From NCBI RefSeq assembly GCF_015169395.1, contig NZ_CP063458.1, positions 7,027,954-7,091,953 on the forward strand: DNA of 64,000 nt, given 5' to 3'. Source of the DNA: Humisphaera borealis. Lineage in GTDB: Bacteria; Planctomycetota; Phycisphaerae; Tepidisphaerales; Tepidisphaeraceae. Shown here piece after piece: positions 25,801 to 31,325 of this stretch. Position 1 is the stretch's first letter. Each line of letters opens with the position of its first letter. A program made the position numbers and the translations under genes. The notes below the pieces were generated by a model, which saw only the letters and a program-made list of their open reading frames with translations, did no database searches and was not told the origin of the DNA.

Positions 25801-25828
25801 TTGACGCGCGTTCCCGGGTCGGTAGCAT
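25801..25828 (+). promoter_or_regulatory. Sigma-70-like promoter of the riboswitch-permease unit
   Basis: TTGACG (25801-25806), a 16-base spacer and TAGCAT (25823-25828) place a transcription start near 25835, just before the riboswitch aptamer. Confidence 0.55.
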
Positions 25829-25840
25829 TTGTCCCCTTCG

Positions 25841-25995
25841 TTTGCCGCCGAGGCACGGGTTTGTTTGAGCCTGTGCGCGGGGAACCCAAGGGTGTTGGTT
25901 GCCGTGAGAATCGGCCCGGCACCGGGGGCGCAGCGATCCACGAAGATCGCGGGGCACTTTCAAGCCCTAGCCCGTCAGCTAACCCCGTAGGCTTT
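25841..25995 (+). ncRNA. c-di-AMP riboswitch aptamer (ydaO-yuaA type)
   Basis: The diagnostic 3' core AGCCCGTCAGCTAACC is at 25969-25984, followed by CCGTAGGC (25985-25992), as in known ydaO/yuaA aptamers. The 5' half has a GCACGGG...CCTGTGC stem, then GGGGAACCCA (25879-25888), a second hallmark. A side stem GCGATC/GATCGC (25933-25938 and 25945-25950) lies between. It precedes a permease of the same superfamily as KimA (YdaO), the classical target in Bacillus. Ligand-bound ydaO RNAs normally switch transcription off. The terminator/antiterminator pair downstream fits that mode. Confidence 0.85.
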
Positions 25996-26155
25996 TGAGA
26001 GGGCACGACAGAGCCTTCCTGCGACGGTCGCCACCCAAGTGGTGTCCGCCCGTCCGACCGCCAAGACTCCTGTCTGTGCGCTGAACGCATGACTGCCGCT
26101 TCCGGGAAGGACCGGGGTGTCGGTTGCTGAATGACGTCTTCGGATTTCCGACGCT

Positions 26156-26203
26156 GTCGCCTCGCTCGGGCGACGGAAGGTGTCGCTATCCGGTCGCTTT
26201 TTT
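26156..26203 (+). terminator. Riboswitch-controlled terminator with competing hairpin
   Basis: The terminator stem 26170-26177 pairs with 26189-26197 (eight pairs, one bulged G), followed by T6 at 26198-26203. A competing hairpin, GTCGCC (26156-26161) with GGCGAC (26169-26174), uses the same left arm, so the two cannot form together. The T-run ends 36 bases before the permease ATG. This is the expected expression platform. Confidence 0.7.
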
Positions 26204-26239
26204 GGCAACTCGAAGGTCGTCGTTCCACCTGTTTCATGT

Positions 26240-28225
26240 ATGCACACCGCATCGTCTTCCGGTCGGGCAAAGCCCGCGGCGCTGTCCCTTTTGTCTGCTG
26301 AACGTCCAAGGAATGTCGGCTGGAAACAGGCCGGCGGCCTGCTTTTTGGTGACTGGGGCACCAGTCGTCTCTACGTGCTGGGCCTGGCCCTTTTCTTCGC
26401 GGGGCGCACCAGCTTCTGGCTCATTCTCGCGATGAGCGTGCTCATCATGGCGGTCGGCTGGGCGTACTCCCAGATCTGCCGCATTTACCCCGACGGCGGC
26501 GGTGTCTACACCGCCGCCAAAAGCAAGAGCCGAACCCTCGCCGTCGTCGGCGCATTGCTGCTGTTTGCCGACTACACGGTGACTGCGTCGCTGAGCGCGC
26601 TCGACGCGTTCCACTACTTCGGTCTCGGCGCCGAGCATGCACATGTCGAGAAGGGGCAGGTCGACAAAGGCCCCGATACCGATGCGTCCCTCGACCCCCA
26701 CCGACAGACGCCACCCAGCACCGCCGACGAACTCTTCGCCTGGCGAAGCCCGGCACTCTGGGGCATCGTCGCGGTTGCCGTCATCGGGATGTTCAACCTG
26801 ATGGGGCCGAAACACACCGGCGGTTTTGCCATCGCGGCGGCCGTGGGGATGGTGTTCATCACACTCCTCATCACCGCGTTCGCGCTGCCGCAGGTGCCCT
26901 GGGCCGACCTGCCGCAGAGAATCCCCTCACTTTCCGACACGCTGCAACACCAGCCGACGGCGCTGTGGGTCTCGTTCGTCTCAATCGTCCTGGCGCTGTC
27001 CGGCGTTGAGGCGATCGCCAACCTCACCGGCGTGATGAAGAAGCCCGTCGCCCATACCGCCCGCAAGGCGATCTGGGTCGTCGCGACCGAGGTCGCCGTC
27101 TTCAACGTCCTCCTGGCGTTGTTCATGCTTTCGATCTCCCCGATCGACCGCGACGCCCACCAGGCTGACATGGCCGCCTTCCTCACCGGGCACTACGTCG
27201 GTCAGTGGGGCGAACTGGCCGTACGCATCATCGGCGGCGTGCTGCTGCTCTCGGCGGCCAACACCGCCATCACCGACATGATCTCCGTCCAGTACCTCAT
27301 GGCCCGCGACGGCGAACTGCCGCAGGTCATGACGCGGCTGAATCGTTTCGGCGTGCCCTGGCTGCCGGCGGTGGTCGCGGCATCGGTCCCCATCATCGTC
27401 CTGCTGATCAGCCACGACCTCGACAGCCTCGCCGCGCTCTACGCCATCGGCGTGATCGGCGCGGTCGCGATCAACGTCACCCTCTGCGCCATGCACCCGC
27501 GCCTCCGCCGCATGCAACGCAAGGTGCCGATGCTCGTGCTGGGTGTCATCCTGCTGGCGATCTGGGTGACGCTCGCGTTCGTCAAGCGCGAGGCGCTGCT
27601 TTTCGTCACCGTCGTCATGGTGCTCGGGCTGTCGGCCCGTCAGCTCAACCGATTCCTCGCCCAGCGCCGCGGACCCAAGCCCAGCATCCTCCGACAGGCG
27701 ATCGCCGAGCAGCTCCCCGACAACGTCGCACTCATGCCCAAGGTTCTCCTGGCCACCTACGGCTCGGAAGCGCTCGCGGCGCCGGCGTTCGCCGAGGCCA
27801 AGCGCATCGGCGCGGCGGTCGTGGTCGCGTTCGTGCGGCAGGTCAACCTGTCCTACAAATACGACGCCGCCGAACGGCTGACGATCGACACCGACCTGGC
27901 CGCCCTCCGCACGTTCGCGCGTTTTCTCGACCTTGGTCACGAGGCCGGCGTGCCCGTCATCCCCATCTACGACACCGGCACCAACGCGGCGGAACTGCTG
28001 GCCGAATCGGCGGCGATGTACGGCGTGGACCGCGTGCTGATCGGCACCAGCCGACGCGGCGCGATCCACAAGTTCATCAAGGGAAACTTCCAGAAGCAGC
28101 TCGAATACCTGCTCCCACCCGACACCAAGATCGTCGTCGTCCCGCCACCGGCCGACGGCCTGCCCCACCGCGCCGATGCTTCGGTGGACGAAGAGGCACT
28201 CGAGACCGTCGGGCCCAAGACCTGA
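26240..28225 (+). CDS. KimA-like APC permease with C-terminal USP domain
   Basis: This 661-residue protein has about twelve membrane helices between residues 35 and 475 ('YVLGLALFFAGRTSFWLIL', 'FHYFGLG' and so on). An insert rich in His, Asp and Lys follows helix 3 or 4 (about 135-165). A universal-stress-like domain occupies about 500-640 ('MPKVLLATYGSEALAAPAFA', 'VDRVLIGTSRRGAIHKFIKG'). The layout, an APC core plus cytosolic nucleotide-binding-type domain, is that of the potassium importer KimA/YdaO, and the upstream c-di-AMP riboswitch points the same way. The frame is open from 26180, but that start would place the terminator inside the gene, so ATG 26240 is chosen. K+ uptake is an inference; an amino-acid substrate is possible. 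Confidence 0.82.
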   Translation: MHTASSSGRAKPAALSLLSAERPRNVGWKQAGGLLFGDWGTSRLYVLGLALFFAGRTSFWLILAMSVLIMAVGWAYSQICRIYPDGGGVYTAAKSKSRTLAVVGALLLFADYTVTASLSALDAFHYFGLGAEHAHVEKGQVDKGPDTDASLDPHRQTPPSTADELFAWRSPALWGIVAVAVIGMFNLMGPKHTGGFAIAAAVGMVFITLLITAFALPQVPWADLPQRIPSLSDTLQHQPTALWVSFVSIVLALSGVEAIANLTGVMKKPVAHTARKAIWVVATEVAVFNVLLALFMLSISPIDRDAHQADMAAFLTGHYVGQWGELAVRIIGGVLLLSAANTAITDMISVQYLMARDGELPQVMTRLNRFGVPWLPAVVAASVPIIVLLISHDLDSLAALYAIGVIGAVAINVTLCAMHPRLRRMQRKVPMLVLGVILLAIWVTLAFVKREALLFVTVVMVLGLSARQLNRFLAQRRGPKPSILRQAIAEQLPDNVALMPKVLLATYGSEALAAPAFAEAKRIGAAVVVAFVRQVNLSYKYDAAERLTIDTDLAALRTFARFLDLGHEAGVPVIPIYDTGTNAAELLAESAAMYGVDRVLIGTSRRGAIHKFIKGNFQKQLEYLLPPDTKIVVVPPPADGLPHRADASVDEEALETVGPKT

Positions 28226-29944: not shown

Positions 29945-31325
29945 CAGGACGCTGAAAAACCCTTGACGGCGGCCGGAGGCCGCGCTGAACTATCGGCCAT
30001 ACTCGACATGGAGGTCGCTCATGCGTGGCAAGACGGATCGGCAGGCAGTTCTGTTCGTGGCGTCGATTGACCTGGAGGCCCGTGTCCGCCCGGATCACCC
30101 GCTGCGGGCCATCAAGCGGATGGCGGATCAGGATCTGGCGAAGATGAGCCGCCGGTTCGACACCGCCTATGCCCAGGAAGGCCGGCCCAGTGTGCCGCCG
30201 GAGCGATTGATCAAGGCGATGCTGCTGCAGTCGCTCTACTCGATCCGCTCTGAGGCACAGCTCGTCGAGCGGATCGACCACGATCTGCTGTTCCGCTGGT
30301 TCCTGGATCTGCGGATCGACGAGCTGGTGTTCGACGCCACTGTTTTCAGCCACAACCGGGTCCGGCTGGAGAAGCACGGTTTGATCGACGCGTTCTTCAA
30401 CAGTACGGTGCGTCGGGCGATCGCGATCGGGCTGGTCAGCTCCGACCACTTCTCCGTCGACGGCTCGCTGATCGAGGCATACGCATCAATCAAGAGCTTC
30501 AAGTCCAAGGACCGAGACGATTCCGGGGACTCCAACGGCTTCAAGGGCCGCAACGCGGAAGTCGACTTCCACGGACAGAAGCGGTCGAACGATACGCACG
30601 AATCAACGACTGATCCTGACGCGAAGCTGATCCGCAAGAGCGACGGTCAGCCGGCGCGGCTTGCCCACGCGCTGCACGCGATCGTGGAGAACCGGCACGG
30701 TCTGGTGCTGGCGGTCGAGGTCAACTCGCCGCTGGACAACAGCGAGCCGAAGACCGCGGTGTCGTTGTTGGACCGCGTGAAGGAGCGATTCAAGATCACG
30801 CCTAAGACGCTGGGCGCAGACAAAGGATACGACCAAGGGCCGTTTCTGCTCGACCTGGAGAAACGAAAGATCACGCCGCACGTGGCGACCAAGGACGGAC
30901 CGATCGGCGGGGAGCCGGGAACCCGCTACAGCAAGGTGAACACCGAGACGATCGCGGCCCGCAAGCGGATGCGAAAGCGAGAGAGTGGCGTTGGGTACTC
31001 GATCAGCCAACGGTGCCGCAAGAAGATTGAGGAGTGCTTCGGCTGGGTGAAGACGATCGGCGGCCTGGCGCGGACGCGTCTGATCGGCCACCGCAAGACC
31101 GGCCAGCAGGCGCACATTGCCGCGGCGGCGTTCAACCTGATCCGGTTGCGCTCACTGTCGGGCGTAGCATGAACCACAGGGCCATCGATGCGCGCCGTCC
31201 GGCGCCGCGACGGGCTCGCCGAAGCGAAAATCCGTCCTGTTTCAAGCCATACTTGCAATAACTGTTGGTCAACGGCCAAAGCGAGGGCCAGAAATCAGGC
31301 GATTCAAGGGTTTTTCAGCGTCCTG
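29945..31325 (+). mobile_element. IS5-type insertion sequence, complete
   Basis: This 1381-base element is bounded by exact 22-base inverted repeats at 29945-29966 and 31304-31325 (left arm CAGGACGCTGAAAAACCCTT plus GA). It is flanked by a direct TTAG on both sides (29941-29944 and 31326-31329), a 4-base target duplication that fits the YTAR preference of IS5 elements. It carries one transposase gene in the forward direction. Intact ends and duplication suggest recent or still functional insertion. Confidence 0.92.
30021..31172 (+). CDS. IS5/IS1182-type DDE transposase
   Basis: This 383-residue transposase has the N-terminal domain 'DHPLRAIKRMADQDLAKMS' with 'GRPSVPPERLIKAMLLQSLY' and 'LFRWFLDLRIDE'. 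The catalytic core shows 'SSDHFSVDGSLIEAYAS' (first Asp), 'TLGADKGYDQGPFL' (second Asp) and 'RCRKKIEECFGWVKTIGGLA' (the Glu of the YREK-like motif). The frame is intact, full length for the family, and fills the inside of the inverted repeats. It runs forward from ATG 30021, 55 bases inside the left repeat. Family assignment between IS5 and IS1182 is left open by sequence; the 4-base duplication favours IS5. Confidence 0.92.
   Translation: MRGKTDRQAVLFVASIDLEARVRPDHPLRAIKRMADQDLAKMSRRFDTAYAQEGRPSVPPERLIKAMLLQSLYSIRSEAQLVERIDHDLLFRWFLDLRIDELVFDATVFSHNRVRLEKHGLIDAFFNSTVRRAIAIGLVSSDHFSVDGSLIEAYASIKSFKSKDRDDSGDSNGFKGRNAEVDFHGQKRSNDTHESTTDPDAKLIRKSDGQPARLAHALHAIVENRHGLVLAVEVNSPLDNSEPKTAVSLLDRVKERFKITPKTLGADKGYDQGPFLLDLEKRKITPHVATKDGPIGGEPGTRYSKVNTETIAARKRMRKRESGVGYSISQRCRKKIEECFGWVKTIGGLARTRLIGHRKTGQQAHIAAAAFNLIRLRSLSGVA

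Follow-up and report, generated by a model that had tools for sequence, protein, structure and literature searches.

A predicted c-di-AMP riboswitch with an additional structured 3′ domain precedes a KimA/KUP-like permease gene in a Phycisphaerae planctomycete

The 64,000-nucleotide stretch of DNA analysed here (the window) contains a predicted K+ permease gene with a long structured leader, which raises the question of what signal this leader would sense and how it would act on the gene behind it. An initial annotation, made from the sequence, had described a c-di-AMP riboswitch that controls a KimA-like permease by means of a terminator and an antiterminator. The features of the locus are collected in Table 1. 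What is known here is the membership of the leader in Rfam family RF00379 and the expected type of gene downstream; what is new is a structured domain attached to the 3′ side of the known aptamer, referred to below as the post-aptamer domain (PAD).

Table 1. Features of the leader and its gene, in positions of the window.
Feature	Position	Strand	Evidence
Promoter-like site TTGACG-16-TAGCAT	25801..25828	+	sigma-70-like motif scan
c-di-AMP riboswitch aptamer	25836..26008	+	RF00379, 66 bits, E 4.6e-13; local scan 4.3e-15
Conserved aptamer core CCCGTCAGCTAACCCCGTAGGC	25971..25992	+	common to almost all class members
PAD, proposed expression platform	25996..26127	+	model R1, 33.8 bits; covariation in relatives
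PAD helix H1, 5′ arm GCACGACAGAG	26003..26013	+	pairs with 26067-26079
PAD strand K5 CCTTCCTG	26014..26021	+	candidate kissing partner of H3 loop
PAD helix H1, 3′ arm CTCCTGTCTGTGC	26067..26079	+	covariation; R1 alignment
PAD hairpin H3, CCGG-GAAGGA-CCGG	26102..26115	+	R1 alignment
Stable local hairpin (antiterminator of the initial annotation)	26154..26176	+	-13.7 kcal/mol, z -4.0
Terminator-like hairpin with U6, lineage-specific	26170..26203	+	-12.7 kcal/mol, z -1.4
KimA/KUP-like K+ permease (predicted), 661 aa, APC transmembrane and Usp-like C-terminal domains	ATG 26240..28225 stop	+	profile and fold matches

The aptamer, its host and its relatives

The leader element is a genuine member of RF00379 and, judged by its sequence, a predicted c-di-AMP binder. 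The score of the covariance match, a check proposed with the initial annotation, lies above the gathering cut-off of 38 bits, and the alignment spans the full model (positions 1-134). The ydaO/yuaA-type core that had been placed at 25969-25992 was found almost exactly there, and the covariance alignment, read by eye, contains the loop-tail pseudoknot, formed by a CUUUC loop and a GAGAG tail. The promoter claimed ahead of the aptamer fits the site listed in Table 1, which is the sole sigma-70-like match in a scan of 3.1 kb, against 0.2 expected; TTGACA-type sites were also found 5′ of the aptamers of several relatives. No credible Na+-I or other Rfam element was detected in the leader of the window at E-values up to 10, and no credible other Rfam element in the leaders of relatives (15 loci, E up to 1). 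An altered ligand specificity through GGGGCGCAG in place of GGGGUGAAU was considered and dropped, since both forms precede the same genes across the class.

The host, described from the sequence as planctomycete-like, indeed belongs to the class Phycisphaerae, near Humisphaera; among the relatives found, Humisphaera, Tepidisphaeraceae and other Phycisphaerae metagenome-assembled genomes are closest to it. Its genome is a single contig of 7.19 Mb and harbors both enzyme types that had been named as a check on the ligand. The one diadenylate cyclase (DAC) gene is CdaA by NCBIfam (TIGR00159, 191 against a cut-off of 188.8) and adjoins a CdaR-like gene, and a PgpH-like 7TM-HD protein provides the phosphodiesterase. 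In this CdaA (L111, 1405-2265) HDLG takes the place of the expected catalytic HDGA motif, and RHR is kept; the cyclases of other class members likewise keep RHR and carry HDLG, HDMA or HDLA.

Among 248 genomes of the class, a DAC was present in 235 and the switch in 56. The genes behind 74 switch loci of the class include APC permeases of several subtypes (36), TrkH (13), KdpA (4), Kup (1), an SPFH protein (5) and a small orphan protein (10). Control of potassium uptake by c-di-AMP is well supported, because the same switch precedes K+-uptake genes (APC permeases, TrkH, KdpAB and Kup) across the class. The pairing of switch and permease extends to Schlesneria and Omnitrophota. This link is not absolute, because a Humisphaera relative (L134) encodes a permease 69% identical to ours with no c-di-AMP switch upstream, through either loss of the switch or control by an independent promoter.

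Several other arrangements were observed at individual loci. L057 carries tandem related permease genes, each with its own c-di-AMP switch, and in L061 (3500-3980) two divergent switches lie about 100 bp apart, one ahead of a permease and the other ahead of an unclear open frame. The SPFH/Band 7 (flotillin-like) membrane protein found behind the switch in L066, L070, L071, L093 and L103 is a target outside K+ transport. In L040, L041, L045 and L053, where short GC-rich leaders precede KimA-type genes, a pairing can be drawn by eye between the aptamer tail (GGAGAG/GAGAG) and a downstream CUCUCC/CUCUC just 5′ of a GGAG ribosome site, and this suggests that these switches may act on translation. 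A second c-di-AMP switch is present in the genome under study, outside the window (G000:C1:3626899-3627396, loci L063 and L212; 38.8 bits). It precedes a gene for an orphan protein of 70 residues with no Pfam or NCBIfam match. Among 298 class genomes the protein was found in 11, every one of them from the family of this host, and in each case its gene directly follows a c-di-AMP-type switch.

The domain 3′ of the aptamer

The PAD begins within the aptamer, its 5′ bases UGAGAG being the pseudoknot strand of the latter. In the relatives it comprises a two-part helix H1, an inner hairpin H2 and a hairpin H3; two conserved strands, UCCUG and CAGGA, may engage in a kissing contact. In 12 relatives 83% of the cells are paired, compared with 31-46% when the structure is slid, 18 pairs are altered on both sides, and covariation scores 0.356 (0.169 in shuffled alignments); none of 500 shuffles attained any of these measures. 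A model named R1, built from the PADs of the relatives with the window left out, locates the PAD of the window in register right behind the aptamer, with E-values of 8.9e-10 in a 401-base stretch and 9.7e-07 in 438 kb. Across 397 class genomes, the strong R1 matches all adjoin RF00379 elements, mostly ahead of APC permeases or TrkH. Two weak matches (29.4 and 27.6 bits) in these genomes have no c-di-AMP aptamer nearby and resemble coding DNA, and we take them as false. The copy in the window is divergent, its score only slightly exceeds those of the two presumed false matches, and its helix H1 has a probability near zero in single-sequence folding; the case for a PAD here rests on its position and on comparison with the relatives. 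Scans of the leaders of the window and relatives retrieved no Rfam family matching the PAD, and R1 gave no match in 392 genomes of the phylum, with filters so strict that the window's own copy was missed too.

We propose that the PAD is the expression platform of the switch. The initial annotation had sought the platform in the hairpins further 3′; these exist as described, and the conserved domain at 25996-26127 had been overlooked. Within the PAD, strands K5 and K3 are a candidate kissing contact. The H3 loop GAAGGA of the window is able to pair with CCTTC at 26014-26018, and at least five pairs can form in 17 of 17 members, for strands chosen by hand. Compensatory change is limited to the window and L095, the latter by itself within chance (20% of shuffles). 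A different switch pairing, between AGRGC of the aptamer tail and GCUCU of the PAD, was rejected: it holds in some relatives and fails in L077, L091, L095 and L106.

The hairpins between the PAD and the start codon had been interpreted as a switch in which the c-di-AMP-stabilised aptamer frees the terminator at 26170-26203, and the hairpin at 26156-26174 serves as antiterminator when ligand is absent. Both hairpins were recovered, and the terminator-like stem (26170-26197) is followed by U6 at 26198-26203, a rare feature given that only three runs of T6 or longer occur in the window with both strands counted. Terminators are also frequent in c-di-AMP riboswitches elsewhere, including the AT-richer class members L046-L051. 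The proposed role of the two hairpins as a switch found no support, however. None of 12 same-family relatives has a terminator at the corresponding place. The competitor hairpin is local and more stable, with its inner pairs predicted to be about 97% formed, and it outcompetes the terminator, whose pairs are predicted to be about 1% occupied. Finally, the best helix that would couple the aptamer or PAD to the terminator region was equalled in 85 of 100 shuffles, which is the level of chance. We thus regard this terminator mechanism as unlikely; it is possible that a terminator of the species' own, at the U6, works in this host.

The PAD could alternatively be a second sensor in its own right, responding to an ion, a metabolite or a protein, which would make the leader a two-input switch. 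Such a role would suit a compact covarying fold whose conserved UCCUG and CAGGA are unpaired and capable of kissing, and which is common to two unrelated transporter families. It is at odds with the constant company of the c-di-AMP aptamer, apart from which the PAD has no strong match, with the overlap between its 5′ end and the pseudoknot strand, and with the lack of a known ligand motif in the PAD. We consider this reading improbable, and give equally little credence to the wider proposal that the PAD is a hitherto undescribed RNA module for sensing or regulation, attached to the c-di-AMP aptamers of Phycisphaerae so that K+-uptake genes answer both c-di-AMP and a second input.

The permease and its proposed control

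The start of the permease coincides with that of its same-family relatives, which have no more than 38 residues ahead of the GDWGTSRLY motif. The protein had been described as an APC permease whose C-terminal domain is USP-like; the first part is borne out by a match to PF13520 (3.8e-29), whereas the second finds a weak match (PF00582, 20.6 bits, under the 24-bit cut-off). The proposed comparison with KimA structures singled out Bacillus subtilis KimA as the closest solved relative by profile and fold. KimA is the single phmmer match of the permease in the PDB (7.7e-08), the top PDB profile match (1.8e-22) and the first-ranked Foldseek match (1.2e-15) of an AlphaFold2 model with a pLDDT of 82.6 and a pTM of 0.80. 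VIA-align matches 530 residues of the model to KimA, the C-terminal domain included, with a Z of 42.9 and an rmsd of 17.5, the large value of which we put down to a probable difference in placement of the cytosolic domain. In KimA this domain is swapped (PMC10284832).

The K+ ligands of KimA are Asp36, Tyr43, Thr230 and Tyr377 (PMC10284832). Their counterparts in the permease are D38, Y45, S254 (a conservative change) and Y401, which do not vary in alignments of 20 and 24 relatives. S254 and Y401 were placed by profile alignment, and D38 and Y45 by their D-x6-Y spacing, as automatic alignment puts TM1 out of register. The c-di-AMP pocket of KimA is not kept in the permease, which has Gln at the position of Arg337 and lacks HNQS (His579-Ser582); KimA-type members of the class, such as L040, carry HNQT. 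The c-di-AMP motif of KdpD-type USP domains, SXS-X20-FTAXY (PMC4686210), is likewise absent, by inspection, from residues 499-635. Because neither site is conserved, a KimA-like direct inhibition of the permease protein by c-di-AMP is not indicated by its sequence. The His/Asp/Lys-rich insert (residues about 130-170), which had been considered an added oddity, turned out to be a variable loop with no support for a special meaning, missing from L059 and L061 and more than 100 residues long in L069. A gene for an IS5/IS1182-type transposase (30021-31172) lies a short distance 3′ of the permease gene.

Transport of amino acids or some other solute by the permease, instead of K+, is most improbable: family libraries label it an amino acid permease and amino-acid APC structures also fit it well (Z 33-37), but KimA comes first by sequence profile and by fold, the K+-site positions agree with those of KimA, GDWGTSRLY in TM1 resembles the Kup signature of L081 (GDIGTSPLY), and other switch-controlled genes of the class encode K+ transporters.

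In our view the leader probably acts as a c-di-AMP riboswitch, lowering expression of a KimA/KUP-like K+ importer at high c-di-AMP. In Firmicutes, c-di-AMP is established to rise when K+ is plentiful. Plentiful K+ would raise c-di-AMP in this host too, the dinucleotide would bind the aptamer and the pseudoknot would form, setting the PAD in a state that reduces synthesis of the importer. The OFF direction is suggested by analogy, as characterised c-di-AMP riboswitches act in this direction (PMC9337991). The PAD would act near the start codon on translation, and not through an intrinsic terminator; we infer this because no terminator is conserved and because the H3 loop lies near the start codon in relatives, usually about 45 nt 5′ of it by eye. 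The c-di-AMP-controlled K+ homeostasis suggested for this organism agrees with the covariance match, the cyclase and phosphodiesterase, the relation to KimA and the conserved K+ site.

With these results, c-di-AMP control of K+ uptake would reach into the planctomycetes, where KimA-like permeases, TrkH, Kdp and Kup would form a coherent regulon; our search of open-licence papers found no description of c-di-AMP riboswitches in planctomycetes. The PAD is an RNA fold on a well-studied riboswitch and could reveal how regulation works in the absence of a conserved terminator. The survey also points to the small orphan protein found solely behind a c-di-AMP switch.

Comparison with known systems

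The leader shares with the ydaO/yuaA leader (RF00379) the full-length covariance match, the conserved core, the loop-tail pseudoknot of CUUUC with GAGAG/GAAAG and the K+-transport gene downstream. It differs in its planctomycete host and in the structured 3′ domain that replaces a conserved terminator. In the tandem riboswitch of Na+-I and c-di-AMP aptamers, the partner of the c-di-AMP aptamer is on its 5′ side and both are equipped with separate terminators (PMC9337991). Both systems join a c-di-AMP aptamer with another structured RNA before an osmotic gene, whereas the extra domain of the window lies 3′, has no terminator and matches no Rfam family. The permease has in common with B. subtilis KimA (PDB 6S3K, 8B70, 8B71) the APC/LeuT fold, a C-terminal cytosolic domain, the K+-site positions and control by a c-di-AMP riboswitch. 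The two proteins are only 16-18% identical and differ at the Arg337 and HNQS positions, and TM1 of the permease has the Kup-like GDWGTSRLY, in contrast to GADGLSSSAYG in L040, a KimA-type member of the class. Unlike Kup/KUP transporters, the permease matches PF13520 instead of PF02705, but it shares with them the GD-x-GTS-x-x-Y signature in TM1.
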